From Streptomyces durocortorensis (GTDB lineage Bacteria > Actinomycetota > Actinomycetes > Streptomycetales > Streptomycetaceae): a stretch of DNA of 37,311 nt. Below the pieces are notes generated by a model, which was given only the letters and a program-made list of their open reading frames with translations, did not search any database and was not told the origin of the DNA. A program made the position numbers and the translations under genes. The DNA lies in the NCBI RefSeq assembly GCF_016901035.1, contig NZ_JAFEUF010000006.1:6839-44149 (forward strand), written 5' to 3'. Of this stretch, positions 4,079 to 33,879 are shown one piece after another; positions within the stretch are counted from its first letter, which is position 1, and each line of letters begins with the position of its first letter.

Positions 4079-4213
4079 TGAACGCGTCGTTCGCGTCCAG
4101 GTCCGCCGGTTGGCCGCAGACCTGAGCTTCTCCGCCCGGCCTACGTGCTCCGCCCGCGCGACTGCCCTCCCCATGACCCCTACTCGTCCGCCCGCCTGAC
4201 AAGGAACACACAG

Positions 4214-5779: not shown

Positions 5780-5798
5780 CCCTTCCCGCTGACCTGAG

Positions 5799-5831
5799 GC
5801 TGGGCCGTCGGTACGCTCCGACGGTCCCAGC
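5799..5831. terminator. Bidirectional terminator between crtU and the Rieske gene
   Basis: A strong hairpin: GCTGGGCCGTCGG pairs with CCGACGGTCCCAGC around a 6-base loop with a single bulged base. It sits in the 103-base gap between two convergent genes and so can stop transcription from both. Confidence 0.75.
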
Positions 5832-5882
5832 TGGTCTCTTGATGACGGAGAGACTCCGGCTCTTCCCGCTCCGCACCGTTGC

Positions 5883-6929
5883 TCAGCCCGGGAACTGTCC
5901 CTTGCTGCGCAGGTGCCGGCGCCGCTCCGCGTAGGCCAGATCGTCGCGCCACAGCCGTCCCGCCGCGCTGCGCATCAAGGGCCGAAGCAGCGGCGCGGCT
6001 GCCCTGGCGATGGCGAACCCGGGGCGGCCGGAGGTAGCGATGACCGCCTCGATGACCGCTGTGCGAGGGTTGCCCAGCGCGTCGGGCTCCAGCGGGGTGG
6101 CGTGCGTCTCGACGACTGAGCCCGCACCCTCACCCTCGGTGATGTGCATGACCACGGTGCGAGGCTCCGGCGTGGTGAAGACCGCCCGCACGGGCACCAC
6201 GGCACGGCCGGCGACCTTGAAGGAGACATCGACCGCGAAGCCGTCCTCATGATCTGGCGATGATCCGTGTGACGTGTCGAGGACTTTCAGGTCGACGAAC
6301 GAATACGGGTGGAACCAGGCGCCGTGCCACGGATCCAGCCGGTTGGCGACGATGTCCTCCGGCTCACAGGTGCCCACGGTTGTGTAGACGGCGGCGACGG
6401 AACTCATGAGATCGGGGCGCACCGGCAGTACGGGCCGGTCAAGGGGCGCTTCCCCGCCGGTGGCGTCCAGACGGACCCAGACCAGCACGCCGTCGTCGTA
6501 CACCGGATAGGGCGTCCACCCGGCGAACGCGTCGCCCTGTAGAGCCAGTCCATGCCAGTGACAGACCAGGGTTCCGCACACCACCGGGCTGTCCCGCAGC
6601 GGAGCACCCAGGTGCGGGCAGCTACCGGGGCCCGCCTTGAGACGGCCCTTCGTGTCTCTCCAGACGACGACATCGGTTCCCGCGACGCTCCGGCCGAAGG
6701 GCGTCCGCCCTCCGATCTCCCGGCTCGCCCCGATCACGTACCAGTTCCCGGAGGGCAGCACTTTCGCCCGCTTGAGAGCCGCCGCGATGGTCGCCGGTTT
6801 CGCCTCCCGCCAGGTGGGTCCTTGCCGGTGCCAGGCAACCGGCTTCCGCAGACGCAGCGGAACACGGTCGCGCAGGCTGCGGCGGCGTTCCGGCCGACTG
6901 GATCCGCCGCCGTTGTCCGGTCCTGTCAT
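5883..6929 (-). CDS. Rieske [2Fe-2S] protein of the carotenoid cluster (DUF5914 type)
   Basis: Protein of 348 residues with one Rieske domain: C104-P-H106 (SCPHLGAPL) and C123-H-W-H126 (CHWHG) are the four cluster ligands. The C-terminal about 190 residues resemble the catalytic part of Rieske oxygenases only loosely. It contains WHGAWFHPYSFVDLKVLD, which has histidines that could bind a metal, but a clear mononuclear-iron facial triad is not certain. Proteins of this kind (DUF5914) are often encoded in actinobacterial carotenoid clusters; their role is unknown. It could hydroxylate or desaturate the carotenoid ring or supply electrons to CrtU; both are inference. The ATG at 6929 follows GAGGAGAG. 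It is the last gene of the leftward crtE-crtI-crtB unit, 82 bases after crtB. Confidence 0.8.
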   Translation of the reverse strand: MTGPDNGGGSSRPERRRSLRDRVPLRLRKPVAWHRQGPTWREAKPATIAAALKRAKVLPSGNWYVIGASREIGGRTPFGRSVAGTDVVVWRDTKGRLKAGPGSCPHLGAPLRDSPVVCGTLVCHWHGLALQGDAFAGWTPYPVYDDGVLVWVRLDATGGEAPLDRPVLPVRPDLMSSVAAVYTTVGTCEPEDIVANRLDPWHGAWFHPYSFVDLKVLDTSHGSSPDHEDGFAVDVSFKVAGRAVVPVRAVFTTPEPRTVVMHITEGEGAGSVVETHATPLEPDALGNPRTAVIEAVIATSGRPGFAIARAAAPLLRPLMRSAAGRLWRDDLAYAERRRHLRSKGQFPG

Positions 6930-7011
6930 GTCGTGATCTCTCCTCATAAGGTCGCTGTACACAGCCCGCGGGGCCGGTTCTCCCTTCGCGTCGGAACGAA
7001 CCGGCGAAGCG

Positions 7012-8064
7012 TCACGGGTGAGGCGGCAGCCGAGGCAGTTCCTTCTCCTGCCGCAGTGCGGACTGCTGGTGAAGGAACGGCTCTTCTCCCGGGGCGGTCT
7101 GGGCAGTGTCGCGCAGGCCCCCCGGACGGCCGCCGCCCGCGCGGTGGGCCGTTGCCATCCGGATCGCCCCCGCGAGGGCGACCGCAACCCTGCGTCGCCG
7201 CGGCACCACCGAACGGCGGTGTACGACCTGGAAGCCGTCCGCCTCGATCGCCCCCAGGATGTCGCGGTACAGCGTGAACGCCGTTCGCATGCAGGGCCGC
7301 GTGACCGGATCGAGCATGTCCAGCCCCGGTTCCGCCTGCCGGTAGACATCTTGCGTCAGTGCCACGACGTCCAGGACGGCCGCCCGGATCCGTGGGTCGT
7401 CCCGTCCGCTTCTGCGGCTCCACAGCAGAAGTTCGCGGTCCACACCGTGGGCTGCCAGAAGGTCGGCGGGCAGGTAGACCCGTCCCCGGTCGAGATCCTC
7501 GCCGACATCTCGGAGAAAATTGGTGAGCTGGAAAGCGACACCCAGGGCCGCCGCATGCGGTGCTGCTTCCTCCCTGGGCGTCACGGTCCCGAGCACCGGC
7601 AGCATCTGCAGACCGATCACCGCGGCCGAGCCGTGCATGTACCTGGCGAGATGCTCGTACGTGGGGTAGTCGGTGACGTCGAGGTCGCTCAGCATCGAGG
7701 CCATGAAGTCGACGAAGTAGCTGTGGTCGATGTCGTACCGCACGGCCGTGTGAACCAGTGCCTGAACCACCGGCTCCTCGCTCCTGCCGGTGCGCAGACC
7801 GGTGTCCAGGCGGTCCCGCAGCGTGTGCAGGGTCCTGTCACGCTGGGCTCGCGTGGCGTTGCCGCTGAGATCGTCCACGATGTCGTCGGCCCAGCGGGCG
7901 AACCCGTACAGGGCGTGAACGGCGGGCCTGCGGGAGAGCGGCAGCAGGCGAGTGGCGAGGAAGTAGGTCTTGCCGTGCCGCGCGTTGAGTCGCCGGCAGT
8001 GCGTGTACGCCGCGCGCAGTGCGGGCTCCTCGATGCCCGCGGCGTCGAGCTCTCGGCGCGTCAT
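7012..8064 (-). CDS. crtB: Phytoene synthase CrtB
   Basis: Condenses two geranylgeranyl diphosphates head-to-head into phytoene. Both aspartate-rich diphosphate-binding motifs are present: ADDIVDD in [11 protein letters not shown] and DVGED in [18 protein letters not shown]. The core is about 290 residues; the C-terminal 50 residues are Arg/Gln-rich and probably disordered. The ATG at 8064 overlaps the stop of crtI by four bases (ATGA), so translation is coupled and the two products should be made together. It lies in the operon crtE-crtI-crtB-Rieske. Confidence 0.95.
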
Positions 8065-9623
8065 GAGTTCACACCCTTGGTGGAGGCTGTCCGGCCGGAG
8101 GGGCCGCTGCGTCGAGCCGCGGACGTCCCACGTGGTGCGCCGGCACGCCCGGTGACGCGGGACGCCGCGAGTTTCCCGGAGATCAGCACGGTGGGCACGC
8201 CGACGCCGGGTGTGGTGCCGCAGCCCGCGATGACGGCGTTGTCGATCCCGCGCAGCAGGTTGCGTGGCCGGAAGGGGCCGGTCTGGGCGAAGGTGTGTGC
8301 GGCCGAGAAGGGTGTACCTGCCGCATGCCCCTGGGCCGTCCAGTCGGCCGGAGTGACGAGGCACTCTTCCTCGATCGACGCGCCGAGGCCGTCCAGGCCG
8401 CGGCGTTCCAGCTCGGTGACGAGGCTGTCGCGGTAGCGCGGCGACAGGTCCTGCCACTCGCGCACCCCGGGGCCGATGTCCGTGTTGGGGCACGGAGCCA
8501 GGATGTAGTGGAGGTGTTTGCCCTCGGGAGCCAGCGAGGAGTCGTGCGTCGTGGGTCGGGTGATCAGGAGCGAGGGGTCGCTCATCACGCGCCCATCGAC
8601 GGTCAGCTCCCGGAACGTGGTCCTCCAGGCCGCGCCGAAGGAGATGGTGTGGTGGGCCAGCTGAGGCCAGGTCCGGTCCGTTCCGGCGTGCAGGATCACG
8701 GCGGACGGAGAATGCTGAAGTTTCACCGCTCGTCGGGGAGCCCTCTCCAGCAGCCGGTAGACGACGGGAAGATCCGGGGTGAGGACCACGGCGTCGCACG
8801 GGATGCGCTCACCTTGCGCCGTCACCACGGCGGTGATCCGGCTTCCGCTGTGCTCGAGGCGCTCGACCTCGGTACTCCAGCGGAAATCCGCTCCCGCCCG
8901 CGCAGCCGATTCGGCCATCCCGCGCGGGAGAGCGTGCATCCCGCCGCGAGGGAAGTACACGCCCGCCACGGTGTCCATGTAGGCGATCACCGCATAAGCG
9001 GCCAGTGCGCGTTCGGGGGCCACGCCCGCGTACAGGGCCTGGAAGGAGAAGACCCGTCGCAGGCGCTCGTCCGAGAGGAACCGGCCGATCTGGGGATCCA
9101 GCCGTCCGAAGGCGCGCAGGCGCGCCAGCCGTGCCAGGTCGGGGTGCACCAACTGGAGGGGCGAGTCGAAGTTGGTATCGATGAAGCGCCGCATCTGCGC
9201 GGCGTACAAGTCGGTGAGCCAGGCTCGCAGACGTCGGTATCCCGCCGCCTCGCGGTCGCCCGCGAAGCGGCGGATCTCGTCTTCCATGGCGTCTGCGGAG
9301 GTGTGTACATCCAGCTGGGCTCCGTCTGCGAATTGCGCCCGGTAGGCGGGATGCAGTTCCAGCAGCTCGACCCGGTCGGCCAGACGGTCGCCGACGGCGG
9401 CGAAGGCTTCGTCGGCGATTTCGGGCATGGTCATCACGGTGGGTCCGCTGTCGACGCGGAACCCGCCCATGTCGAAGCGTCCTGCGCGTCCGCCCGGTGA
9501 CGCCTCGCGTTCGATGACCGTGACACGCCGTTGGGCGCCCAGAAGATGCAGGGTGGCAGAGAGACCCGCCAGACCTGCTCCGACGACGACCACATGATCA
9601 GTCGGTCCCGGTACTGATTTCAC
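8061..9623 (-). CDS. crtI: Phytoene desaturase CrtI
   Basis: Bacterial-type FAD-dependent phytoene desaturase that carries phytoene through successive desaturations to lycopene. N-terminal FAD-binding motif [18 protein letters not shown] with [11 protein letters not shown], the segment [11 protein letters not shown], and the C-terminal CrtI signature ([19 protein letters not shown]). It has 520 residues; the last 30 are Arg/Ser/Gly-rich and unconserved. The start is the GTG at 9623 with AAAGGG upstream. The 3' end overlaps crtB by four bases; crtE ends 59 bases upstream of it. A related desaturase of a different carotenoid route (CrtN/CrtD) is less likely given the crtE/crtB partners. Confidence 0.95.
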
Positions 9624-9682
9624 CTGATTCCCTTTCCTGGGGAGGGGGCTTTCGCTGTCTCGCAGCAGGTGCTGGAGGGCCG

Positions 9683-10987
9683 CTACCGGACCACGTCGCT
9701 GTCGGGGACCCGGTAGGCGAGGGGCATGCCGACGACTGACCCGATCAGAGCGGAGAGGCGCCCGTGCACGGACGCGGAAAGTGCAGCCCTCAACAGATGT
9801 TCCTGACTGTCCGAGACCAGGCGGTCGATCTCCCTCTCTGTCGCCCTGCGTGCTCCCGTGTGTTCCAAGGTTCGGCGCAGCTCGTCCAGCCCGGCACCGG
9901 AAAGAGAGGGATCGCCAAGTGATCGGTTCAGCACGTGCCGGGCGGAGGTGTCCCCGGCCTCTTCCGACAACGTCCGAGCCACCGCGGTCAGGTAGGTGAG
10001 TTTCCCGGCGCGAATGTCCTCTCCAGAGGGCTTTCCGGTGACCGACGAGTCGCCGAAGACGCTCAGCAGGTCGTCGTACAGCTGAAAGGCGATACCTGCG
10101 CTGCGACCCGCGGAGCAGAGAGCGGACGTTGTCCGGCCGTCGGCTCCGGCGAGTGCCGCGCCGAGAGCCAGGGGTCGTTCGACCGTGTAGAGAGCCGTTT
10201 TGAGACAGGCGATACGCAAAGCCCGATCCGTAGTGGATGAGCCGTCCGCTTGGGCGCGCATGTCCAGATACTGGCCCGCGACCATTTCACCGCGCATCGC
10301 ACGCCACAGCCTCTGAACGTGCTCGCGGTTCGCTGATCCGGTCAGGATGTCGGCGACAAGATCGTCCGCCCAGGCCAGGGCCAGGTCGCCGGCCAGGATC
10401 GCCGCTGCCCGCCCGTGAGCGTTGTGGTCTCCCCGCATACCGGACCGTACGTGGTTGTCGGCGAACTCGACGTGGAGCGCCGGCGACCCGCGGCGAAGTG
10501 ACGACCCGTCCATCACATCGTCGTGGATGAGCGCGCAGGTCTGGATCAACTCCAAAGCGGCTCCGAGCCGGAGGGCGGACTCGGCGCCCTTCCCGATCGG
10601 GGAGCCGCCACCCGCGCGCCAGCCCCACCAGGCGAACCGCGCCCGCATGCGTTTACCGCCGCGCAGCGCGAAGAGCCGCACTCGCTCAGCGACCTCCTGC
10701 GAGAACAACGGGTCGACAGTCCGGGCGTCGCGTACGCGCTGCCCGGTGTAGACATCCAGCATGTGCTCCACGGCTCTCGCCGTGTCGGTGTCATGGTCCG
10801 GCGCGTGTTCGGCTGACTGCCTGTCGGGCGGCCCGGCGAAGCTCGGGACGTGGCCCTTCCTCTCCTTCCCACTTTGATCCTCGGGAGACGCGGAGCGGGA
10901 CGCTTCGACCGCCGGCGCCCGTTGGGCGTGTTGGTCGTGAGTCGTATACGGCGAGGCTGGAGCCCGCACAGCACGACGGCGTGACAT
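9683..10987 (-). CDS. crtE: Geranylgeranyl diphosphate synthase CrtE
   Basis: Trans-prenyltransferase that supplies the C20 precursor for phytoene. First aspartate-rich motif DDVMD (D156, D157, D160), preceded by the GGKRMRARF substrate-binding segment. The second aspartate motif is the degenerate YDDLLSVFGD (D305, D306), followed by GKPSGEDIRAGKLTYL. The total of 434 residues includes an unusual, polar N-terminal extension of about 70 residues before the enzyme fold. The ATG at 10987 follows GAGAGGTGA; an ATG five codons upstream (11002) is less well placed. It is the first gene of the leftward operon and is divergent from the lipocalin gene. Confidence 0.93.
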   Translation of the reverse strand: MSRRRAVRAPASPYTTHDQHAQRAPAVEASRSASPEDQSGKERKGHVPSFAGPPDRQSAEHAPDHDTDTARAVEHMLDVYTGQRVRDARTVDPLFSQEVAERVRLFALRGGKRMRARFAWWGWRAGGGSPIGKGAESALRLGAALELIQTCALIHDDVMDGSSLRRGSPALHVEFADNHVRSGMRGDHNAHGRAAAILAGDLALAWADDLVADILTGSANREHVQRLWRAMRGEMVAGQYLDMRAQADGSSTTDRALRIACLKTALYTVERPLALGAALAGADGRTTSALCSAGRSAGIAFQLYDDLLSVFGDSSVTGKPSGEDIRAGKLTYLTAVARTLSEEAGDTSARHVLNRSLGDPSLSGAGLDELRRTLEHTGARRATEREIDRLVSDSQEHLLRAALSASVHGRLSALIGSVVGMPLAYRVPDSDVVR

Positions 10988-11320
10988 GTCTTCACCTCTC
11001 ATCGGAATAGCAGTTGCTCCCCAGGGGCCGGAAGTCCGATGCGGTGTCGATCGGAACGGGAAGAGCCCTGGTGGAGTCCTTGCGCTGTCTGTGAAGACCT
11101 CAGGAACGATGAAGAACCCAGAAACGATCTTCCTCGGGGCGACGCATCGCTGCCAGTTGAGCGAAGGGGGCACGCCGCCCGGGAAGACTCGCTTCGCCGT
11201 ACGCGCGTGCCGCCTCGGCGCCGTCCCGGCTGACTCCGGGGCTGGAATCTCGGGGGTGAATCCAAGGAGACCTCCACGGCTGAACACCGCGTGTCGTAGT
11301 CCACTGAGCAAGGAGTGATC
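10988..11320. promoter_or_regulatory. Divergent promoter region of crtE and the lipocalin gene
   Basis: 333 bases without a convincing gene. It must contain promoters for crtE (leftwards) and the lipocalin gene (rightwards). Two GGAAC hexamer starts (near 11056 and 11104) resemble ECF-type -35 elements; the second is followed 17 bases later by CGATC. These are weak matches. Co-regulation of lipocalin and carotenoid genes from this shared region is an inference. Confidence 0.4.
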
Positions 11321-11914
11321 GTGTCCGTTTCGTCTTTGATCCGGCGCGCCGCGGTAGTTGCTGTCAGCTCCGTTCTGACGCTCGCCGGGGCCGCCGACGC
11401 CAGCGCCGCCGACTCGCAGCAGGTCAGCCGGGTCGACCTCGGCCGGTATGCCGGTACCTGGTACCAGATTGCGGCAGTGCCGCAGCTGTTCGAGATTCAG
11501 TGCAAGAAGAACGTGCGGGCCCAGTACACGCCGCAGTCCGATGGCAGCGTCGGTGTCCGGAACTCCTGTACCACGTGGTGGGGGTCCACCAGCGAGGTGA
11601 ATGGCGCGGCACGACCGCTGGACGAATCGAACACGCGCCTCAACGTCTCTTTCACACCCCGGCCCGGCGGCGGCTTCGTCCACGGCAAGGATGCCAACTA
11701 CGTGGTGGTGGGACTGGCCCCGGACTACTCCTGGGCAGCCGTGACCAACGAGGAGCGGTCCGCAGGGTTCCTCCTGTCCCGGACACCGGCCCTCGGGTCC
11801 GAGGCATCGGCCGCGGCGATCGAGGCGTTCACCGATGCCGGTGTCGATCCGTGCGATCTTCGCCTCACGCGTCAGGACGGCGGCGTCGCCCGGCCGGCTT
11901 CGCTGTGCAGCTGA
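11321..11914 (+). CDS. Secreted lipocalin (Blc-like)
   Basis: Secreted eight-strand barrel protein of the lipocalin family, which binds small hydrophobic molecules. A signal peptide (RRAAVVAVSSVLTLAG, cleavage near ADASA-ADS) precedes the lipocalin signature LGRYAGTWYQIAAVP (conserved G-x-W), and later NYVVVGLAPDYSWAAVTNEE and the helix SAAAIEAFTDAGVD fit the bacterial Blc group. Cysteines in EIQCKKN, RNSCTTW, DPCDL and the terminal LCS could form two disulfides. The GTG at 11321 is chosen because AAGGAG ends five bases before it; a GTG two codons upstream overlaps that site. It is divergent from crtE. The ligand is unknown; a carotenoid or a membrane lipid are both possible. Confidence 0.88.
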   Translation: MSVSSLIRRAAVVAVSSVLTLAGAADASAADSQQVSRVDLGRYAGTWYQIAAVPQLFEIQCKKNVRAQYTPQSDGSVGVRNSCTTWWGSTSEVNGAARPLDESNTRLNVSFTPRPGGGFVHGKDANYVVVGLAPDYSWAAVTNEERSAGFLLSRTPALGSEASAAAIEAFTDAGVDPCDLRLTRQDGGVARPASLCS

Positions 11915-11936
11915 CTGCTGATCGTTGACGGCCGAC

Positions 11937-11974
11937 CCGAGGGCGGATCGGGATCCGGCAGGATCCGCCCTCGG
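11937..11974. terminator. Strong hairpin terminator, lipocalin/glycosyltransferase convergence
   Basis: A perfect 13-base inverted repeat (CCGAGGGCGGATC / GATCCGCCCTCGG) around a 12-base loop, 23 bases after the lipocalin stop and about 100 bases beyond the end of the leftward glycosyltransferase gene. It should terminate both transcripts. Confidence 0.8.
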
Positions 11975-12075
11975 AGCAGAGACCGAGGCCGCCATCCGGT
12001 CCGCCGTTCGCGAAACCTGGTGGCACCGCCTCGGGCAGCGTGCGCCCGCCGCTTCCGCCGTACCTCGCTCGCGCG

Positions 12076-14163
12076 TCATGAGCGGACGTGTGTGCGCGAT
12101 TGAAGGGTTCGGAGATGGCCTCCCGTCGCGCGACCCGCTTCTCTCGGCACGGACGCGTAGTGATCGGCCAGCGTCCGGGCCATCGCGGTCGACGAGTACG
12201 TTGAGCGGGCGAGGTTCTGGGCCCGGCGCGCCATCACACGGGCTTCCTCGTCGTCGATGCTGAGCAGGCGACTCAGCCCTTCGCCGAGAGTGCGCGAGTT
12301 CGAGGTGTCGAGCAGGAGGCCGTTCGTTCCGTCGACGAGGTAGTGCGGGACGCCCCCGCGCTTCGGAGCCGCCACCATGAGGCCGGCCTCCATTGCTTCG
12401 AGTACCGCGAGTCCGAACTCCTCCTTCGCACTCGGACATACGTACCGGGCGCGCATGCGCCTCGCCGGGTCCGCGAGTGAACGCTCCAGCAAGCGCACCT
12501 CCGCATTGGAAAGGGCCGGTAGGAGGAGCAGTCGCTTCCTGGCCTCGGGGGAGGAAGCGACGGCCTCGCCGATGCGGTCGCGCATGGAACGTTCCACGGA
12601 ATCCTCGTCCTCCGGCGGGCTGCCTCCCACAAGTACGAGAACCGACCTCTCGTAGCACCCCGAATCCACCCAGGAACGCACAAGGACGTCCTGCTGTTTG
12701 ACGGGGTGCAACCTGCCTACGGTGAGCAGAACTGCTGGTACGCGGGACGGGTCGGCAAGGGCGATCGCATCGATCCTGGCGAGGAGCTGCTCGCGGCGGC
12801 GAACCTCGTTCGACGGTGGCCGGTAGGGAGGGATGCCCTCCGGCGTCGTACGGACCGGCCCCTCCCCGGTCCGGTCGCTCAGTTGCGGGAAGTACGAGCG
12901 CAGTCCGGTCGACTCCTCGTCCCCGGCTGCGATCCCGAGGACGCGGTCGGCTCGCTGGATCAGCCGGTCCGCGAGGAACACCCGGTGCAGGTCATGGCGG
13001 AGGCTGTCGGGTTCCGCACCGGGCACGTCGTGCCTTTCGGTGATCTGGCGGTGCGGGTCCGGTGTCGCGGTGAAGACCAGCCCCAGTCCCGCCCTGCGTG
13101 CGGCTTCGGCAACCGCGAGCGAGCCGTCGTCGGCGTAGCGGACGTGAAGCACGTCGATCGGCCTGCCCAGCATTCCGAAGAGTCTGGCCGCCCACCATGC
13201 CATCGCTTCCCGATGGCTTCCCATCTCCTCGGGTCTCACGTGGCGGGGGCTGTCCACGGGAAGTCTGAGGATCCAGTGCCCGTTCGCGCGCCGGAGCAGA
13301 AGCACCGGATCTGCTTCCAGTTCCGGTCGGCTCGCGGTCACCACGGTGACCACGCCGGCGACACGTCCGGTCTGTGCCAGAGCGTCTCCCAGGGAGCCCA
13401 GAAGGACGCTGAGACCGCCGCTGAGGCCCTCGCCCGGACGGTCCAGGTGTCCGATGAGCATGGACTGCGCCACGAGGATTCCGGGAGGCAGGGTCACGGC
13501 CTCGGCACCTGCCAAGGGGACGTTGCGCAGGGTGCCTCTGAGCAGCCGTTCGTAGGTGTCTTCCCGGTGTTCGGCTCGGGTGGGCAGGAGATGGACGCGG
13601 TCGTAGGCGGCGAGAAGGCGCCAGGCGGCATGGCGCACTCCTCGGTTGCCTCCCATCGACAGCGCGAGCAGTTCCGCCTCGGGCAGTGGCCGCAGGTACG
13701 AGGATGCGGCCAGGTCGAGCAGGAACCGTACGGAGTCGGGGTTGCGAGCTTTTCGCAGGCCGTGTTCCAGGGCGGCACTGGCGCTCCTCGGCCCATGGCG
13801 CCGCACGGCGTAGGGCCATGCGTCGAAGACGGCTGCCCCGGTGAGGGCACCACCGTCGAGAAGCCGGACGCATTCCAGCGGCGGCGGTACGTTCCCGGAC
13901 CGCATCCGGTGACGCAATCGGGCCAGCGCCACATCCTGGCGGGAGGCGAGCGTCGGCGGACCATCCGTGCCCCCATCCGGGCGGTACTCGGCCTGAACCA
14001 GCTCGGCTAGCAGGTTCGGATGTGGCGCGCACCATTCTGGAGGGTCACCGGTCGACCGTCGCCAGTGGTCCGCCCTGGCCGCCACGAACGGATCGGACGG
14101 GAACGTCGCGCAGCTTCGCGGGGTGCGATCAGCGCTGGTCGCGGCAGGGTGCGAACGATTCAT
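12076..14163 (-). CDS. GT4-family glycosyltransferase with large N-terminal region
   Basis: Retaining GT-B glycosyltransferase of family GT4. The C-terminal nucleotide-sugar half is clear: VGRLHPVKQQDVLVRSW, then CPSAKEEFGLAVLEAMEAG with the E-x7-E motif, then GGVPHYLVDGTNGLLLDT. The acceptor-binding half begins near residue 240, with HVRYADDGSLAVAEAARRAG inside it. The overall pattern recalls the sucrose-phosphate-synthase-like subgroup. The first approximately 220 residues, with LRHRMRSGNVPPPLECVRLLDGG and several Arg-rich helices, match no domain I recognise. The ATG at 14163 follows GAGGAG. It is divergent from the GT1 gene across a short gap. Sugar donor and acceptor are unknown; neighbouring crt genes suggest, but do not prove, a carotenoid or membrane-lipid acceptor. 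Confidence 0.82.
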   Translation of the reverse strand: MNRSHPAATSADRTPRSCATFPSDPFVAARADHWRRSTGDPPEWCAPHPNLLAELVQAEYRPDGGTDGPPTLASRQDVALARLRHRMRSGNVPPPLECVRLLDGGALTGAAVFDAWPYAVRRHGPRSASAALEHGLRKARNPDSVRFLLDLAASSYLRPLPEAELLALSMGGNRGVRHAAWRLLAAYDRVHLLPTRAEHREDTYERLLRGTLRNVPLAGAEAVTLPPGILVAQSMLIGHLDRPGEGLSGGLSVLLGSLGDALAQTGRVAGVVTVVTASRPELEADPVLLLRRANGHWILRLPVDSPRHVRPEEMGSHREAMAWWAARLFGMLGRPIDVLHVRYADDGSLAVAEAARRAGLGLVFTATPDPHRQITERHDVPGAEPDSLRHDLHRVFLADRLIQRADRVLGIAAGDEESTGLRSYFPQLSDRTGEGPVRTTPEGIPPYRPPSNEVRRREQLLARIDAIALADPSRVPAVLLTVGRLHPVKQQDVLVRSWVDSGCYERSVLVLVGGSPPEDEDSVERSMRDRIGEAVASSPEARKRLLLLPALSNAEVRLLERSLADPARRMRARYVCPSAKEEFGLAVLEAMEAGLMVAAPKRGGVPHYLVDGTNGLLLDTSNSRTLGEGLSRLLSIDDEEARVMARRAQNLARSTYSSTAMARTLADHYASVPREAGRATGGHLRTLQSRTHVRS

Positions 14164-15696: not shown

Positions 15697-16263
15697 TCAC
15701 GCATGTGCGTCGAGGAGGTGGGCGAGAGCCCTGAGACCCCGTCTGGTGTGACTCTTGACCGTCCCCAAGGGCAAGTCGAGAAGCCGCGCAACCTCCGGCT
15801 GAGTCAGGTCCAGGTAATAGGCCAGGAAGAGGACCTCGCGCTTTCGGTCCGGCAATTCCGACAGGGAGGATGCCATGTGCACCCGCTCGACGGCTCCGGC
15901 ACCGACGTCAGGGTTCGCGGCGACGGGGCTCCGTATCAGACGGCGCAACCCCCCGTATCTGCGGGCGACGGCGGCAGACGCGTCGGCGGCCTTGTGCACC
16001 GTGATGCCGTAGATCCAGGGGCCGATCTCCCCCCGGCGAGAGCAGTACCTACCGGAGTAGCGCCAGACGTCGGCGAACACCTGCTGCGCGACATCCTCGG
16101 CCTCCTGAGGATCGACGCAGCGGCGTCTGGCCCAGCGAAGCACCTGTGGATGCCAGTGGGTGTAGATGCTCTCGAAGGAATCCCGCACGGTGTCGCCGTG
16201 CCTGAGGGCGCCGCAATCGTTCGGGCAACAGTCGGACGAAGTCGGAACAGTTCGCTCGGACAC
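15697..16263 (-). CDS. ECF RNA polymerase sigma factor
   Basis: ECF sigma factor of 188 residues. Region 2: PQEAEDVAQQVFADVWRY followed by GPWIYGITVHKAAD. Region 4: YYLDLTQPEVARLLDLPLG and TVKSHTRRGLRALAHLL. The N-terminal 20 residues contain three cysteines (DCCPNDC), unusual for the class and a possible metal or redox site. The GTG at 16263 follows CCGGAG. No anti-sigma gene adjoins it: downstream is the end of the convergent GT1 gene. Its region 4 is close in style to the sigma factor at the left end of the window. Pigment clusters of Streptomyces are often run by an ECF sigma (LitS); I cannot tell whether this is the functional counterpart. Confidence 0.85.
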   Translation of the reverse strand: MSERTVPTSSDCCPNDCGALRHGDTVRDSFESIYTHWHPQVLRWARRRCVDPQEAEDVAQQVFADVWRYSGRYCSRRGEIGPWIYGITVHKAADASAAVARRYGGLRRLIRSPVAANPDVGAGAVERVHMASSLSELPDRKREVLFLAYYLDLTQPEVARLLDLPLGTVKSHTRRGLRALAHLLDAHA

Positions 16264-18730: not shown

Positions 18731-19921
18731 GTGGCCCAGATCTGGGCGGGTACAGACATCGGCAAGACCCATCACCACGGTGTGGTCCTGAACACTGAGG
18801 GCGCACGACTGCTGTCGCGACGTGTCCTGAACGACGAGCCGGAGCTCCTGGCCCTGCTTTCCGATGTGCTGGCCCTCGACGAGGACGTGGTCTGGGCGGT
18901 CGATGTCGCCGACGGCATGGCCGCACTGTGGATCAGCGTGCTGCTCAACCACGGCCAGCACCTCGTCTACATACCCGGCCTGGCGGTCAATCGGGCTTCG
19001 GCCGGCTACCGGGGCACGGGCAAGACCGACGCCAAGGACGCCACCGTCATCGCCGACCAGGCCCGGATGCGCCGGGACCTGACGGTCCTGAGGCCGGACG
19101 ACGAGCACGCCATCGAGTTGCGGGTCCTCACCAACCGCCGGAGCGACCTGAACGCCGACCGCACTCGCCGGATCAACCGCATTCGCGGTCAACTCACCGG
19201 AATATTACCGGCCTTGGAACGAATCCTCGACCTTGGCAACGCAGGGCCGCTGATGCTGCTCAGCGGCTACCAGACCCCCGCCGCCCTACGCCGGACCGGC
19301 GGGAAACGGCTGGCGACCTGGCTGCGTAACCGCAAGGTCCGCACCCCCGAAGCCCTGGCCGAGGCAGCCCTCGAAGCGGCCGAGCGCCAGCACACCGCCG
19401 TCCCCGGGGAGAAGATCACCGCGCAGGTGATCCACACCCTGGCCAACGAGGTGATGAGCCTCAACGAGCAGATCGCTGAGATCGACAAGCTCATCGCGGC
19501 CCGGTTTCGCGCCCACGAACTCGCCGAAGTGATCTCCAGCGTGCCCGGCATCGGCCCCCTGCTGGGCGCTGAGTTCCTCGCCGCCACCGCCGGTGACATG
19601 AGCCGCTACGGCACCGCCGACCGCCTGGCCAGCCTTGCCGGAGTCGCTCCGGTTCCCCGGGACTCCGGCAACATCAGCGGCAACCTTCACCGGCCCAGGC
19701 GCTACCACCGAGGGCTGCAGCGCGTCTTCTACACCTCCGCGCTCATCAGCATCCGCACCTGCGACGCGTCGCGCCGGTTCTACGAACGCAAACGCGCTGA
19801 AGGAAAACGGCACACCCAGGCCGTGCTCGCCCTGGCCCGCCGACGGGTGAACGTCTTGTGGGCCCTCATCCGTGACGGACAGTGCTACCAAAGCGACCTC
19901 CCCGTCACTGCCTCGACTTGA
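18731..19921 (+). CDS. IS110-family transposase (DEDD recombinase)
   Basis: Full-length IS110 recombinase, 396 residues. N-terminal RuvC-like DEDD domain (WAGTDIGKTHHHGVVL; later GTGKTDAKDATVIADQARM). A coiled-coil linker (about residues 200-265) precedes the C-terminal Transposase_20 domain with the nucleophilic-serine region (SSVPGIGPLLGAEFLA; LASLAGVAPVPRDSGN; the RYHRGLQRVFYTSAL helix). It acts with a bridge RNA in characterised members. The GTG at 18731 follows GGAGGAAC. Codon 159 is TTA (19205-19207), rare in Streptomyces and read by the bldA tRNA. The protein shows no truncation, so the element may be active. Confidence 0.93.
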   Translation: MAQIWAGTDIGKTHHHGVVLNTEGARLLSRRVLNDEPELLALLSDVLALDEDVVWAVDVADGMAALWISVLLNHGQHLVYIPGLAVNRASAGYRGTGKTDAKDATVIADQARMRRDLTVLRPDDEHAIELRVLTNRRSDLNADRTRRINRIRGQLTGILPALERILDLGNAGPLMLLSGYQTPAALRRTGGKRLATWLRNRKVRTPEALAEAALEAAERQHTAVPGEKITAQVIHTLANEVMSLNEQIAEIDKLIAARFRAHELAEVISSVPGIGPLLGAEFLAATAGDMSRYGTADRLASLAGVAPVPRDSGNISGNLHRPRRYHRGLQRVFYTSALISIRTCDASRRFYERKRAEGKRHTQAVLALARRRVNVLWALIRDGQCYQSDLPVTAST

Positions 19922-28178: not shown

Positions 28179-29291
28179 TCAGGGGGCCGTCGTCACCGTG
28201 CCGGGGGCGAACCTCCTTCGCCAGGCGAGCGCGACGTAGACCAGGCCGATCAGCACCGGGACTTCGATGAGCGGGCCGACGACTCCGGACAGCGCCTGAC
28301 CGGAGGTGACGCCGAAGGTGGCGATGGCGACCGCGATGGCCAGTTCGAAGTTGTTGCCCGCTGCGGTGAACGCCAGCGTCGTGGTGCGGTCGTACGCCAG
28401 GCCCAGGCCCTTGCCGAGCAGGAACGTGCCGAAGAACATGACGGCGAAGTAGACCAGCAGTGGCAGAGCGATCCGCACCACGTCCAACGGCTGCGAGGTG
28501 ATGGTCTTCCCCTGCAGGGCGAAGAGGATGACGATGGTGAACAGCAGCCCGTACAGGGCCCAGGGGCCGATCTTCGGCAGGAACCTCTGCTCGTAGGTGT
28601 CGCGGCCCATCTTCTGCTCGCCGATACGGCGGGTGAGGAAGCCGGCCAGCAGCGGGATGCCGAGGAAGATGACGACGTTCAGGGCGATGTGCCACACAGA
28701 CACATCGAGGCCCTGGCCGTCACCGAGGTTCATCCACCGGGGCAGCAGGTCGAGGTAGAACCAGCCCAGCAGGCCGAACGCGAACACCTGGAACACCGAG
28801 TTCAGCGCGACCAGGACGGCGGCGGCCTCGCGGTCACCGCAGGCGAGGTCGTTCCAGATGATGACCATGGCGATGCACCGGGCGAGGCCGACGATGATCA
28901 GGCCGGTGCGGTATTCGGGCAGGTCAGGCAGGAAGATCCACGCCAGGGCGAACATCACCGCCGGGCCGACGATCCAGTTGATGACCAGCGAGGAGACCAG
29001 CAGCTTGCGGTCGCCGGTCACACGGTCGAGCCGGTCGTAGCGGACCTTCGCCAGGACCGGGTACATCATGACCAGCAGGCCGAGCGCGATCGGCAGGGAG
29101 ATCCCGCCGATCTCGATCTTCGCGAGCGCGTCGTTCATCCCCGGGATGAGGCGGCCCAGGCCCAGGCCGACGGCCATGGCGAGCAGGATCCACACCGCGA
29201 GGTAACGGTCGAGGGTGGAGAGCTTCTTGACGATCGAGTCGTCCCCACCGCCGGCCGGAGCGGGGACGGTGGTGGGCTCGGTGGAGGTCAC
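28179..29291 (-). CDS. acr3: Arsenite efflux permease Acr3
   Basis: Arsenite/H+ antiporter of the ACR3 (bile/arsenite/riboflavin transporter) superfamily, with about ten membrane helices and 370 residues. Conserved features: the motif GLARCIAMVIIWNDLACGD with C139, the cysteine essential in characterised Acr3 proteins, and FTAAGNNFELAIAVAIATFG. It pumps As(III) out after arsenate is reduced by ArsC. The start overlaps the arsR stop by four bases (ATGA), so the two are translationally coupled. The broken monooxygenase follows directly. Confidence 0.93.
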   Translation of the reverse strand: MTSTEPTTVPAPAGGGDDSIVKKLSTLDRYLAVWILLAMAVGLGLGRLIPGMNDALAKIEIGGISLPIALGLLVMMYPVLAKVRYDRLDRVTGDRKLLVSSLVINWIVGPAVMFALAWIFLPDLPEYRTGLIIVGLARCIAMVIIWNDLACGDREAAAVLVALNSVFQVFAFGLLGWFYLDLLPRWMNLGDGQGLDVSVWHIALNVVIFLGIPLLAGFLTRRIGEQKMGRDTYEQRFLPKIGPWALYGLLFTIVILFALQGKTITSQPLDVVRIALPLLVYFAVMFFGTFLLGKGLGLAYDRTTTLAFTAAGNNFELAIAVAIATFGVTSGQALSGVVGPLIEVPVLIGLVYVALAWRRRFAPGTVTTAP

Positions 29292-29596
29292 GGGCAGGCC
29301 CTCTTGTTCTCGGTGGCGGTGCGGGCGGAGTCGGCCAGTGCGGCGAACTGCTCGGACAGCCCGGCCAGGACCTCGGGCTTGAGCTTGTAGTAGGTGAAGC
29401 GGCCGCAGGGCTCGGTCTCCACGATCCCGGCCTCGCGCAGCACCTTCATGTGGTTGGACAAGTTGGTCTGCCTGGCTCCGGTCTCCTCGACCAGGTGCGT
29501 CGTGCAGAGCGTCTCGCGCGCGAGCAGGGTCACGATCTGGAGGCGGAGCGGATCGCCCAGCACCCGGATCACATCAGGATCGACTGAAGTCAGCAT
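29288..29596 (-). CDS. arsR: ArsR-family repressor of the acr3 operon
   Basis: Small ArsR/SmtB repressor, 102 residues: DVIRVLGDPLRLQIVTLLA, TGARQTNLSNHMKVLREAG (recognition helix) and CGRFTYYKLKPE (wing). The usual ELCVCDL metal motif at the recognition-helix base is replaced by ETLCTTHL with one cysteine (C31); a second cysteine is C64 (EPCGR) in the wing, and C101 lies at the end. These could form a different As(III) site. It is first in the leftward operon arsR-acr3-(broken monooxygenase) and divergent from arsC. Confidence 0.9.
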   Translation of the reverse strand: MLTSVDPDVIRVLGDPLRLQIVTLLARETLCTTHLVEETGARQTNLSNHMKVLREAGIVETEPCGRFTYYKLKPEVLAGLSEQFAALADSARTATENKRACP

Positions 29597-29692
29597 GCAC
29601 TGATACTCTCACATCATCACCCGCTGATACCAGCGGGAGCTGAAGTCATTGGCGGGCCGGGTTCCGCCATGCGACGAGAGAGAGCGATCACC
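29597..29692. promoter_or_regulatory. Divergent arsR2/arsC operator-promoter
   Basis: A 96-base gap, AT-richer than its surroundings. CTGATAC occurs at 29600-29606 and 29624-29630, and the second copy lies in the inverted repeat CCGCTG-ATAC-CAGCGG (29621-29636). These are the best candidates for binding of the adjacent ArsR, which would control both arsR-acr3 and arsC. They differ from the operators at the other arsR. Confidence 0.5.
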
Positions 29693-30115
29693 ATGGCCGA
29701 CAAGCCGTCCGTCCTGTTCGTCTGCGTCCACAATGCCGGCCGCTCCCAGATGGCCGCCGCGTGGCTGACCCATCTGGCCGGAGATCGCGTCGAGGTCCGC
29801 TCCGCCGGCTCCAACCCGGGCGCCGCCGTGAATCCGGCCGCAGTCGAGGCCATGGCCGAGGTCGGCATCGACATCTCCCAGGAGGCGCCGAAGATCCTCA
29901 CCGTCGACGCGGTCCGCGAGTCGGACGTCTGCATCACCATGGGCTGTGGAGACACCTGCCCCGTCTTCCCCGGCAAGCGCTACCTCGACTGGAAGCTGGA
30001 GGACCCGGCCGGCCAGGGTGTCGACGCCGTCCGCCCGATCCGCGACGAGATCAAGACCCTCGTCGAGGGCCTGATCGCCGAGATCGCCCCGGCGAAGCCG
30101 GAGGCGACGGCGTGA
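29693..30115 (+). CDS. arsC: Thioredoxin-linked arsenate reductase
   Basis: Arsenate reductase of the low-molecular-weight phosphatase fold, 140 residues. The P-loop C11-VHNAGR-S (CX5R) attacks arsenate; C80, C85 and C89 ([15 protein letters not shown]) provide the resolving cysteines used by thioredoxin-coupled enzymes. Product arsenite is exported by Acr3, encoded on the other strand. The ATG at 29693 is preferred because the sequence [16 protein letters not shown] is the family start; an ATG eight codons upstream is possible. Its 3' end overlaps the broken trxB by four bases. Confidence 0.93.
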
Positions 30116-30329
30116 GCGAGATACGCGAGGTCGTCATCATCGGCTCCGGCCCCGCCGGATACACCGCCGCCCTCTACACCGCCCGCGCCCAGCTGAGGCC
30201 ACTGCTGTTCGGCAGCAGTGTCATCGTCGGCGGCTCCCTCACGACCACCACCGAGGTCGAGAACTTTCCCGGTTTCCCCGACGGCGTCGACGGGCCGGTC
30301 CTGATGGAGAACATCTCGGTCGGTCCTGA
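30112..30329 (+). pseudogene. Thioredoxin reductase (trxB/arsT), N-terminal fragment
   Basis: The first about 70 residues match bacterial thioredoxin reductase: [21 protein letters not shown], given in part as [17 protein letters not shown], and [21 protein letters not shown]. The family is about 320 residues with a CxxC centre; both the NADPH domain and CxxC are missing. Similarity stops at about 30329, precisely where repeat copy A begins. The start overlaps arsC by four bases, so this was the arsenic-linked reductase that regenerates thioredoxin for ArsC. Confidence 0.85.
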
Positions 30330-30505
30330 CGGAGTTTGGTGGACGCGAAACGGGACAATCCGGACCGTCAGGTTCGTCTGAGCTTCCTCGGCTGAACAAG
30401 ATCGTTCAGCTGGGGTGTGCCGGCCGATTCTCCGTACTGTGCGCGCTCGAGCGGCGAGAAGACCTGCGCGGTGCGGACCTCAATGCGGTCGAACGAACTT
30501 ACGAC
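30330..30505 (+). repeat. Junction repeat, copy A
   Basis: From CGGAGTTTGGTGGAC onwards this sequence matches copy B at 36941 without gaps for 66 bases (about 50 identities). After some unalignable bases it matches again (TGCGCGGTGCGGACCT against TGCGCAGTACGGACCT, then ATCGAAC-like), with a net 5-base offset. It begins where trxB similarity ends. Probably the end of a mobile element I cannot name. Confidence 0.65.
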
Positions 30506-30931: not shown

Positions 30932-31093
30932 ATGGCGCCCGGCCGGCACCGACCGGTTGAGAGCGGCGGCGACGCTGCGCGCCTGCTCGCCAACGCCCCG
31001 CGGTTGGAGGAGGCCGCGGCCCGGATGCGGGAGGCATGGCAGACCTCGCCGACGAGATGTGGTTACCGGACAGAGCTGCCGCTGCCGAAGTGA
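30932..31093 (+). CDS. Possible small ORF or gene end
   Basis: A 53-codon frame beginning ATG: DAARLLANAPRLEEAAARMR and EAWQTSPTRCGYRTELPLPK. The helical, alanine-rich sequence looks like real coding, perhaps the C-terminal end of a lost gene. GGGG precedes the ATG. Not recognised; 31094-31267 holds nothing I can support. Confidence 0.25.
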   Translation: MAPGRHRPVESGGDAARLLANAPRLEEAAARMREAWQTSPTRCGYRTELPLPK

Positions 31094-31267
31094 ATCGGGC
31101 ATCTGCGCCAAGGGTGACGGGTCCCCGTTCGGCCGGTCAGCGCCCTTCCGTGCCGCCAGACTCCGAGGAGGGAACGCTCCGGTGGAGCGTGGGTACGGGC
31201 GATACGGGGCGGGCGTGATCGAGCGGGGTAAGACCGATCGTGCCGCCCCGGGGGAGACGGGGCTGGG

Positions 31268-32083
31268 TTGACCGATCACGGTGTCCATCGCGCATACAAG
31301 GCGACGGGAGGCGCGCCGGGTGGGCGACGGCCCGGCGACGACCAACGCCGGGACACTGGGCCGGTGCGCGCGGTGCCGCGGCACGTGGCCTGCGTGATGG
31401 ACGGCAACGGCCGCTGGGCCAAGCGGCGTTCGCTTCCACGGACGGCGGGCCATCGGGCTGCCGAAGCCACCGTCATCGACATCATCGAGGCGGCTCGGGC
31501 GGCCGGAGTCGAGTGGCTCAGCCTGTACGCCTTCTCCACCGAGAACTGGAACCGCCCCGGCACCGAGGTCGACTACCTGATGCGCCTGGTCCGCCGGGTT
31601 GTGCGCAAGCACGCACCCCTGCTGCTCGCCCGCGGCATCCGCTGCCGTTTCCTCGGAGCCGCCGACCCACGCATCCCCCGGGAGCTGGCCCAGGATTTCG
31701 ACGACCTTGCGGCGCTGACCGCCGACAACCGGGGGATGACGCTCACCGTCGCCTTTGACCACGGCGGGCGCCGAGACATCGTCGAAGCCGCCAGATCGCT
31801 GATCCGTAACGGGACGCAAGCCGACGACGTGACCGAGCGGCTTTTCGCGGACCACCTGCCGTTTCCCGACACCCCCGACGTCGACCTCGTCATCCGCACC
31901 TCCGGCGAGCAGCGGATCTCCAACTTCATGCTCTGGCAGGTCGCCTACGCCGAGTGGGTCTTTCCCGCCGTGCTCTGGCCGGACTTCCGGGCCCCTGACT
32001 TCCTCACCTGCCTGCACACCTACCGGTGCCGTGACCGCCGCTTCGGCGGCATCCCGCCCCAGATGAACGGAGACCTGTCATGA
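31268..32083 (+). CDS. cis-Prenyltransferase (UppS-like)
   Basis: Undecaprenyl-diphosphate-synthase-type enzyme adding isopentenyl units in cis to an allylic diphosphate. Conserved features: VMDGNGRWAKRR (catalytic D45), TAGHRAAEAT, LYAFSTENWNRP, RTSGEQRISNFMLWQ and YAEWVFPAVLWPDF, with RCRDRRFGGI near the end. AFDHGGRRDI replaces the more usual N-Y-G-G-R. From the TTG at 31268 it has 271 residues; about 30 N-terminal residues are Gly/Arg-rich and unconserved, so a GTG near 31364 is also possible. It overlaps the next gene by four bases (ATGA), so the two should act together. Streptomyces normally has housekeeping cis-prenyltransferases elsewhere; this copy is likely specialised. Product length is unknown. 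Confidence 0.88.
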   Translation: MTDHGVHRAYKATGGAPGGRRPGDDQRRDTGPVRAVPRHVACVMDGNGRWAKRRSLPRTAGHRAAEATVIDIIEAARAAGVEWLSLYAFSTENWNRPGTEVDYLMRLVRRVVRKHAPLLLARGIRCRFLGAADPRIPRELAQDFDDLAALTADNRGMTLTVAFDHGGRRDIVEAARSLIRNGTQADDVTERLFADHLPFPDTPDVDLVIRTSGEQRISNFMLWQVAYAEWVFPAVLWPDFRAPDFLTCLHTYRCRDRRFGGIPPQMNGDLS

Positions 32084-33549
32084 CGACCGGAACCACCGGA
32101 ACGGCCGACGATGCACCCCTGCTCGCCATGCAACCGCCGTTCCGCGCCTTCTTCGACGACCCGCGCTGGGCGCTGGCCATCATCCGCGCCACCGTACTGG
32201 AGGCCGCCCACCCGCAGATCGGAGCCGCTCTCGCCGACAACTCCACCTTCGTCGCCCACCCCTGGCGCCGACTGCGCAACACCTTCCTCAGCATGCGGCG
32301 CATGTTCGACGCCGACCCAGCGGTACGAGACCGGGAGGCCGCCCGGCTCAACAGGCTCCACGCCCGCATGAGCGGCTCCGACTCCCGCGGCCGCGCCTAC
32401 GACGCCATGGACCGCGCGACCCGCGCCTGGGTGGTCGCCACCCTCTTCGAGAGCGCCGTCACCATGTGCCGGCTCAGCGGCCAGCCGCTCGACCAGGCCA
32501 CGATGGAGCGGCTGTACGGCGAGTACCGTGCGTTCCTCGCCGCACTCGACGGCGACGCCGGTGAACTGCCCGAGGACCTCAACGACTTCTGGCGCTACTT
32601 CGACAGGGTCGTCGAGGACGAGCTGGAGAACACCGAGGCCGCCCGCCTCATCCTCTACCGGCTCTTCGACCACCTGCCCGCCCCGGCACTGCTGGACGGC
32701 ATGCCGGCCCTGTGGGCGGCCGGCCGCGCTGTCGTCGGCCCCCTCCTCGGCGCGATCACCGTCGCCTCGCTCCCCGAGCCCTACCGGCGCAAGGCCGGCC
32801 TGGCCGAGATGCCGGGCACCCCGACCCTCATGCAGGGCGCCTACCTCGCCGCCGGTCTCACCCGGTTCCTGCCCGAGGGCTGGATCAATGCCGAAACCAT
32901 CATCGAGACCCTTTCCCTCTCGCCCGACAGCGACGACCCCCGCGCCCGGACCGTGACCGCGCTGCGCGCCCGCATGAAACAAGCCTCGGCCCTGCTCCGC
33001 CTCCTCACACCACTGAGCGGCGACGCAGGCCCCGGCCCGGACCCCGCTACCTCACAGGGCACGGGAGGAGGCCAACGCTCGGCGGAGGAGTTCTTCCGTC
33101 AGGTGCTGGACCAGACCGGCGACGGCTACCTCGACTGGCCCGACCTCGCCGCCATGGCACGCGAACTGGCCACCCGACTCGACCTGGACGAACCCGAGGA
33201 GACCCGGCTCTACGACGCCTTCGCCGCATGGTGGCGCGAACTCCAGGCCGCCCTCGACACGGACGGTGACGGCCGTGTCAGCGCCGACGAGTACGCCGCA
33301 GCCGTCCCCTCCCTCGCCGGGCCCGCGCTCATCCGCGTTGCCGAGGTGCTCTTCGACGCGACCGACAAGGACGGCAGCGGCACCATCAACGCCGAAGAAC
33401 ACCGGGCGCTCTTCCGCACCGCCTTCCACCGCGACATCACCGTCACCGACGGCACCTACGGCCGCAGCGCCTTCGTGGGCGACTTCCTCGCCTTCATGGC
33501 AGGCCAACGCAGGAACACCGCGTACGACGCCCTGCTGGCCGACGCCTGA
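32080..33549 (+). CDS. DUF2236 (MpaB/Lcp-like) protein with C-terminal EF-hands
   Basis: 489 residues. Residues of about 15-310 match DUF2236, the superfamily of MpaB (farnesyl side-chain cleavage in mycophenolate synthesis) and the Lcp rubber oxygenases: EAAHPQIGAALADNSTFVAH, PWRRLRNTFLSMRR, ARLNRLHARMSGSDSRGRAY and RAWVVATLFESAV. After a Gly/Pro-rich linker come three EF-hands: D344-D355 (DQTGDGYLDWPD), D393-E404 (DTDGDGRVSADE) and D429-E440 (DKDGSGTINAEE). The last two are canonical calcium loops. The usual WVHA motif reads WVVA (117-120), so a heme ligand position may be altered. No signal peptide. Translationally coupled to the cis-prenyltransferase, so the likely substrate is its prenyl product; that is inference. 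Confidence 0.85.
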   Translation: MTTGTTGTADDAPLLAMQPPFRAFFDDPRWALAIIRATVLEAAHPQIGAALADNSTFVAHPWRRLRNTFLSMRRMFDADPAVRDREAARLNRLHARMSGSDSRGRAYDAMDRATRAWVVATLFESAVTMCRLSGQPLDQATMERLYGEYRAFLAALDGDAGELPEDLNDFWRYFDRVVEDELENTEAARLILYRLFDHLPAPALLDGMPALWAAGRAVVGPLLGAITVASLPEPYRRKAGLAEMPGTPTLMQGAYLAAGLTRFLPEGWINAETIIETLSLSPDSDDPRARTVTALRARMKQASALLRLLTPLSGDAGPGPDPATSQGTGGGQRSAEEFFRQVLDQTGDGYLDWPDLAAMARELATRLDLDEPEETRLYDAFAAWWRELQAALDTDGDGRVSADEYAAAVPSLAGPALIRVAEVLFDATDKDGSGTINAEEHRALFRTAFHRDITVTDGTYGRSAFVGDFLAFMAGQRRNTAYDALLADA

Positions 33550-33555
33550 CGAACT

Positions 33556-33583
33556 CGTGCAGGTCGGCGGCCACGGCTGCACG
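33556..33583 (+). terminator. Possible terminator after the DUF2236 gene
   Basis: CGTGCAG and CTGCACG form a 7-base stem around a 14-base loop, six bases after the stop codon. No T run follows. From here to about 33880 I see no gene. Confidence 0.4.
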
Positions 33584-33879
33584 CTCTCCTGCGGGACGGT
33601 GGTGGCGCGATTGTTTCGGTGAGGCCTCGGCCGAGGGCGGACAGGTGCGGCCGGTGCAGGTCAGGGGGTGTCAGACGCGGTGCACCCCTCGGGGTGATGG
33701 GCGAGTTGCCCCCGGGAACTCCTGATCCCTGTCCAGGAGCATGGGCCGGACGCCCGATCACGGGTACGGCGGGGGCTCGGGCGCCGACCGGCTTTGGAGC
33801 AGTTTCCGGCCCCGCTCGGTGCGGAGCATGAGCCGGCCGTGCTCCGGCCTCGTCACCGAGTGGTGGCGGCCGCCCGCAT

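Follow-up and report, generated by a model that had tools for sequence, protein, structure and literature searches.

A cis-prenyltransferase coupled to an EF-hand protein of the MpaB/Lcp family in Streptomyces: a candidate prenyl-processing cassette

Here we analysed a stretch of 37,311 nucleotides of Streptomyces durocortorensis DNA (the window; host genome 7.96 Mb) and found that a gene for a cis-prenyltransferase (CPT) and an overlapping gene for a protein joining a DUF2236 domain of the MpaB/Lcp type to three EF-hands make up a real and conserved functional unit, the coupling of the two genes being well supported. Sequence comparison shows no other conserved neighbour beside the pair, and copies occur on plasmids as well as in another family of the class; the two genes are therefore a self-contained cassette, and purifying selection acts on both. 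Taken singly, both protein families are known, public records naming them 'polyprenyl diphosphate synthase' and 'oxygenase MpaB family protein'; the pair may be a terpenoid synthase-oxygenase module whose chemistry is new.

Organization of the gene pair

The features of the cassette as a whole are as follows, with coordinates counted in the window:

31060..31360, forward strand: upstream block of the cassette, a probable promoter or leader with possible N-terminal codons of the synthase (DNA conservation with relatives)
31268..32083, forward strand: cis-prenyltransferase (Z-isoprenyl diphosphate synthase), 271 residues (PF01255, TIGR00055, match to 7cpn, catalytic residues)
32080..32083, forward strand: ATGA stop-start overlap, translational coupling (read directly in the sequence)
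32080..33549, forward strand: MpaB/Lcp-family (DUF2236) protein with C-terminal EF-hands, 489 residues (PF09995 and EF-hand Pfams, AlphaFold2 model, structural matches)

A preliminary description of this DNA had claimed that a complete cis-prenyltransferase adjoins a 489-residue DUF2236 protein with a four-base overlap, and that DUF2236 is joined there to three EF-hands. All of this stood, since both open reading frames are present, the overlap reads ATGA, the PF01255 profile (Prenyltransf, E = 8.9e-74) is covered in full from position 1 to 219 of 219, and the second protein matches PF09995 and has three loops with intact ligands. The four-base overlap recurs at 104 of 119 loci, a count that pools relatives from several searches, with starts picked automatically and some species counted twice. 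For the synthase start codon TTG at 31268 is one option and GTG at 31361 the alternative; the plasmid relatives have the synthase annotated about 31 codons shorter, equivalent to GTG 31361, and in many relatives the similarity of the aligned sequences extends farther upstream.

Two upstream blocks, GAGCCAAGGGTGA and CAGACTCC, are common to most of 29 aligned sequences. Between 31060 and 31270 these and a further noncoding stretch, GGGGTGGGCGTGA, are conserved upstream of the synthase in many Streptomyces and are a candidate regulatory element of the cassette; a promoter scan of the upstream block found no match to the sigma-70 consensus.

Conservation of the pairing across genomes

We gathered 80 genome loci through relatives of the DUF2236-EF protein, the synthase not being used in the selection, and in every one of the 80 the synthase is the next gene upstream, in the same orientation. 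Of 294 genomes sampled evenly from the order Streptomycetales, 68 have the oxygenase clade, 68 the synthase clade and 67 both (Fisher P = 2e-64, relatedness being ignored), and the cassette is present in about 23% of the sample. In these 67 genomes the two genes share a contig and are always adjacent, with a gap of at most 198 bp. The one oxygenase that lacks a synthase is truncated (genome G129), and the sole synthase without this oxygenase clade belongs to G137 (locus L144). Pairing was also found for all five copies that a class-wide single-sequence search gave in the second family, and in other genera of the order (both copies, L122 and L123); on plasmids, the four cassette-clade oxygenases inspected all have a synthase, annotated uppS, immediately upstream. 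The tree distances of synthase and oxygenase are correlated (r = 0.94). Counting neighbours, which bears on the earlier proposal that the two genes belong together, thus gave a strongly positive answer, and chance neighbourhood or the curiosity of a single strain is ruled out because adjacency is complete (80/80) and co-occurrence reciprocal in 67 of 68.

A compact cassette in variable ground

DNA similarity to more distant relatives extends from about 31060-31110 to about 33552-33585, so that the shared unit is about 2.5 kb long and contains the upstream block with its conserved stretches, the two genes and little else. Besides the pair, no family lies within 6 kb at more than 9 of the 80 loci, and the 80 genes that come first downstream belong to 74 different families (neighbours were predicted by a simple gene finder, and hence some are spurious). 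Only the pair is conserved, and not a set of more than two pathway genes as a terpenoid cluster would have.

Among the 20 genomes with a long main contig, 14 have the cassette within about 1 Mb of the contig end (sizes rounded). In the trees of both genes the Microtetraspora glauca copy (L070) is nested among Streptomyces copies, which suggests horizontal transfer; other copies that do not come from the order fall outside the Streptomyces group. The nearest named relative of the cassette is that of Streptomyces globisporus JCM 4378 (98%), and no relatives were found in viral contigs. Comparison of the window with ten relatives gave dN/dS values of 0.19-0.35 for both genes, which indicates that both are maintained, and the selection suspected earlier is purifying. 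Copies of the cassette also decay, as can be seen from fragments in G129, G213, G051 and G241 and from a second DUF2236-EF copy in the same genome as the window (L142 1868-3190, C123); with about 72% identity, a broken N-terminal end and no synthase, this copy is a duplicate in decay. The earlier statement that nearly every other gene around the pair is broken holds locally, between about 30.1 and 36.5 kb, but not beyond, where the carotenoid genes, the arsenic-type genes at 28.2-30.1 kb and other genes of the window look intact. Since the breakage is confined to this section and nearly every genome has flanks of its own, the pair is a mobile cassette in variable ground and not the survivor of one decayed cluster.

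The synthase

31754..31771, forward strand: FDHGGR clade signature, at E. coli UppS A143-N144-Y145-GGR (alignment of cassette copies)

The synthase also matches TIGR00055 (E = 9.4e-69), and its closest solved structure is 7cpn (E = 6e-66). The catalytic residues D26, N28, R30, R39, H43, S71, E73, N74, W75, R77, R194, E198, R200 and E213 (E. coli numbering) are all kept in the window and are conserved in 84-87 of the 87 cassette copies. The family and the intact active site strongly indicate that the enzyme makes a Z-prenyl diphosphate.

Which chain it makes is hinted at by the clade signature, whose F and H are found in all 87 cassette copies and whose D in 84, and which is accompanied in the window synthase by a four-residue deletion. 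The L144 synthase has both signature and deletion; the housekeeping UppS-like copy of the same genome as the window (L010, 48%) reads VNYGGR and has neither. At E. coli position 69 the window synthase keeps Ala, and two other CPTs of its genome have a bulky residue there, as do the short-chain enzymes of the Rv1086 type. Position 69 and the positions of the FDH signature presumably line the chain tunnel of CPTs, and with tunnel-lining positions changed the product may differ from C55; the sequence hints at chain length appear to conflict, Ala at 69 standing against Phe at 143.

A housekeeping UppS would be the sole or universal copy of its genome. This genome has three further CPTs, one of them UppS-like at 48%, the cassette occurs in only about 23% of the sampled genomes, and the cassette synthase is not the housekeeping UppS here. 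It resembles housekeeping UppS enzymes (about 48-53%) to a degree similar to their likeness to one another. When the whole phylum was searched for additional synthases of this clade, the matches from outside the genus were all enzymes at about 47-53%, which were taken as housekeeping UppS.

The oxygenase domain

32152..32817, forward strand: DUF2236 / MPAB_Lcp_cat domain, residues 25-246 (Pfam and fold matches of the model)
32236..32361, forward strand: putative haem-site residues D53, R64, N67, T68 and H94, for Lcp E148, R164, K167, T168 and H198 (mapping via PMC5522427, PMC12724181)

The domain matches PF09995 (MPAB_Lcp_cat) with E = 1.8e-47 and 162.8 bits against a curated cut-off of 23. 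Searching the PDB with its sequence returned EF-hand proteins or noise only, and a fold search was therefore needed. From 46 family sequences we obtained an AlphaFold2 model of moderate quality (mean pLDDT 67, pTM 0.50), in which the core helices at residues 30-190 have pLDDT values mostly of 75-92. Aligned with VIA-align, and read with the moderate model in mind, residues 7-280 match the t-anethole oxygenase 8s1j (Z 18.7 over 252 residues) and residues 19-266 match Lcp 5o1l (Z 15.0 over 233 residues), the next unrelated fold over the domain reaching Z 9.7.

The haem site of LcpK30 comprises E148, R164, K167, T168 and H198, with D57, R68, K71, R72 and H104 as counterparts in the nitrile rubber oxygenase Nro1 of the MpaB family (PMC5522427, PMC12724181). 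In the window protein the probable counterparts are D53, R64, N67, T68 and H94, mapped from spacing and the helix layout of the model and not from a superposed haem. All 46 sequences have R64, N67, T68 and H94, and 45 of them have an acidic residue, D or E, at the position of D53. The MpaB/Lcp-type assignment given to the DUF2236 part in the preliminary description is thus consistent with the modelled fold and with the retention of these putative haem-site residues.

The WVH motif of canonical Streptomyces DUF2236 proteins, a motif not known to be family-defining, is replaced by WVV, WVI or WVA in 77 of 79 cassette copies, with WVV in the window; L133 and L144 keep WVH. This replacement means that the active site may differ from that of canonical members, with activity possibly changed or removed. 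We reject the reading that it amounts to loss of the haem ligand, as the mapping on Lcp and Nro1 would put the proximal His at the invariant H94. On inspection, the N-terminus MTTGTTGTADDAPLLAMQPPFRAFFDD shows neither a twin-arginine motif nor a hydrophobic stretch of the signal type, and extracellular degradation of rubber as by Lcp is unlikely because no secretion signal is evident.

The EF-hands

33109..33144, forward strand: EF-hand loop 1 (DQTGDGYLDWPD), residues 344-355 (ligand columns conserved in the alignment)
33256..33291, forward strand: EF-hand loop 2 (DTDGDGRVSADE), residues 393-404 (ligand columns conserved in the alignment)
33364..33399, forward strand: EF-hand loop 3 (DKDGSGTINAEE), residues 429-440 (ligand columns conserved in the alignment)

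Several EF-hand Pfam models match this part of the protein, and in the fold search the C-terminal part of the model resembles 3akb, a calcium-binding protein of S. coelicolor (Z 14.2). Three loops of the form D-x-[DT]-x-D-G with an acidic position 12 are conserved over 46 sequences, and a fourth position, at about residues 451-462, is degenerate. From its sequence the protein is likely to bind calcium. Other Streptomyces have EF-hand DUF2236 proteins at 30-36% identity without a CPT neighbour, and therefore the domain fusion is wider than the pairing and the architecture needs no prenyl supply from an adjacent gene. A second EF-hand DUF2236 group (L124-L132, L134-L141) stands alone, with neither a CPT nor a conserved neighbour, and its aligned members have a complete fourth EF-hand.

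Related operons

In L144 (4130-6798) a CPT, a squalene/phytoene synthase-like gene and a DUF2236 gene follow in a row. The DUF2236 protein has no EF-hands, and the locus is placed beside the cassette in the synthase tree and close to it in the oxygenase tree. In L133 (3990-7374) a divergent squalene/phytoene synthase-like gene lies beside a CPT and a DUF2236-EF gene. Both sets support a role of the DUF2236 protein on isoprenoids and would also fit a joined chain as its substrate. In L175 (1-2424) a frame that by eye resembles a prenyl synthase, a cis-prenyltransferase and a gene of the same squalene/phytoene synthase-like family as in L144 and L133 stand in a row, and this family has matches in 84 of the 294 genomes at E <= 1e-22.

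A proposed route and its alternatives

We think it somewhat more probable than the contrary that the synthase builds a cis-prenyl chain and that the oxygenase oxidises or cleaves this chain or its alcohol, the reading that fits best because of the families, the intact active sites, the cytosolic location and the obligatory coupling. In the cytosol, the CPT would condense IPP onto an allylic diphosphate and form a Z-prenyl diphosphate. The co-translated MpaB/Lcp-type protein would then act as a cytosolic b-haem oxygenase, oxidising or cleaving, with O2, a C=C bond in the chain or in the alcohol derived from it, with an oxidised or shortened prenyl compound, for example an aldehyde or ketone, as the product. 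The three EF-hands would bind Ca2+ and so stabilise the oxygenase or set its activity. Counting for this direct route are the exclusive pairing, the ATGA overlaps (104/119), the fold matches, the invariant inferred haem residues, the intact CPT and the dN/dS values; counting against it are the moderate model, the change from WVH to WVV and the EF-hand DUF2236 proteins without a CPT neighbour.

The same coupling and obligatory pairing, together with the change from WVH to WVV in the clade and the three intact EF-hands, could also be read as signs of a DUF2236-EF protein that is no enzyme, being an accessory subunit or calcium-responsive regulator of the CPT much as NgBR/Nus1 and rubber-particle proteins are accessory partners of eukaryotic CPTs. 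We regard such a role as rather unlikely, as a mere scaffold would have no need of the inferred haem residues, all of which are invariant, the synthase keeps every catalytic residue like the self-sufficient homodimeric CPTs of bacteria, and L144 pairs an EF-hand-free DUF2236 protein with a related CPT. It is likewise unlikely, though to be taken seriously, that the pair serves a larger terpenoid pathway in which an unlinked enzyme, squalene/phytoene synthase-like or of carotenoid type, joins or cyclises the chain before the DUF2236 protein oxidises it. Squalene/phytoene synthase-like genes in or beside L144 and L133 would agree with this, as would a carotenoid cluster in the flanks of L048 and L068 and about 19 kb off in the window, but across 80 genomes the cassette has no conserved third gene next to it and carotenoid genes are nearby at just 2 of the 80 loci.

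The likeness of the synthase to housekeeping UppS enzymes (about 48-53%, as these to one another) and the accessory distribution on plasmids and at chromosome ends would suit a protective or housekeeping back-up, in which an extra UppS-like enzyme is accompanied by an oxygenase for the removal or repair of polyprenyl lipids that are oxidised or foreign. This is improbable, however, since the clade-specific signature near the chain tunnel suggests a specialised product, as does the exclusive coupling to an oxygenase. Finally, the two genes might have no functional link and hitch-hike together, for which only the possibility of one ancestral insertion spreading as a block can be cited. We give this hardly any credence, given that the pair stays together in surroundings that are new in nearly every genome, that purifying selection acts on each gene, and that the only intact lone copy among the 294 genomes is the CPT of G137, which is itself separated from a DUF2236 gene by a single gene.

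Going beyond direct oxidation of the chain, we tentatively suggest that the cassette could be make-and-cut rubber chemistry in miniature, a mobile pathway in which both steps take place in the same cytosol under calcium control and an apo-isoprenoid aldehyde or ketone is released as a signal, odorant or antibiotic-like compound. We know of no precedent for it.

Relation to known systems and significance

The bacterial MpaB-type alkene-cleaving oxygenases (8s1j; Nro1, PMC12724181) and MpaB of mycophenolic acid biosynthesis share the Pfam family MPAB_Lcp_cat with the window protein, which matches their fold (Z 18.7 to 8s1j) and has in common with them the R-x-x-[KN]-[TR] motif and an upstream acid; unlike them it has C-terminal EF-hands, WVV in place of WVH and a constant cis-prenyltransferase partner. 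LcpK30 (5o1l; PMC5522427), an enzyme of the Lcp type that cleaves cis-polyisoprene, is matched in fold (Z 15.0), and its R164, T168, H198 and the acid E148 have counterparts in the window protein. The latter differs in having no evident secretion signal, Asn for Lys167, about 13% identity and EF-hands, and in being linked to a synthase, whereas Lcp is used for degradation. With undecaprenyl and short- and medium-chain CPTs (E. coli UppS; 7cpn; Rv1086-type) the window synthase shares a full-length PF01255 and every catalytic residue, and with E. coli UppS the small Ala at the position of A69; in contrast to E. coli UppS and its kin it has FDHGGR for xNYGGR, with a bulky Phe at A143, and a four-residue deletion, and it is extra to the housekeeping copy. 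The EF-hand part matches the S. coelicolor calcium-binding protein 3aka/3akb (Z about 14), but in the window the EF-hands are fused to an oxygenase domain and the fourth hand is degenerate.

The open-access papers searched contained no description of a CPT paired with a DUF2236-EF protein, in agreement with the earlier remark that no characterised system with this pairing is known. The pairing suggests a two-step pathway not yet described. Actinobacteria have many MpaB-type oxygenases, few of them with a known natural substrate, and here the cassette brings its own candidate substrate maker. Since only two genes are involved and about a quarter of the sampled Streptomycetales genomes have them, the substrate question is directly testable. 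The cassette could further provide one of the few cases of an enzyme that binds calcium in the specialised metabolism of bacteria, and could serve as a compact means of producing functionalised oligo-isoprenoids.

Other genes of the window

The window also contains a carotenoid set at 2684-12658, accompanied by regulatory genes, and a transposase:

1072-1854: RskA-type anti-sigma factor near the carotenoid set
2684-4078: lycopene cyclase
4145-5779 and 8061-9623: CrtI/CrtU-type oxidoreductases
7012-8799: phytoene synthase
9683-12658: polyprenyl synthetase
15697-16263: ECF-type sigma factor near the carotenoid set
18731-19921: IS110-family transposase

That the cassette is part of this carotenoid cluster is ruled out by the presence of carotenoid genes in the flanks of just 2 of the 80 loci. 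At these two, L048 and L068, only a few kb separate the cassette from a carotenoid cluster, perhaps slightly more often than chance would give. Arsenic-type genes at 28179-30381 encode an SBF-family transporter, an ArsR-type regulator and a low-molecular-weight phosphatase family protein, the last frame of the block being a truncated, reductase-like one that ends near 30381.
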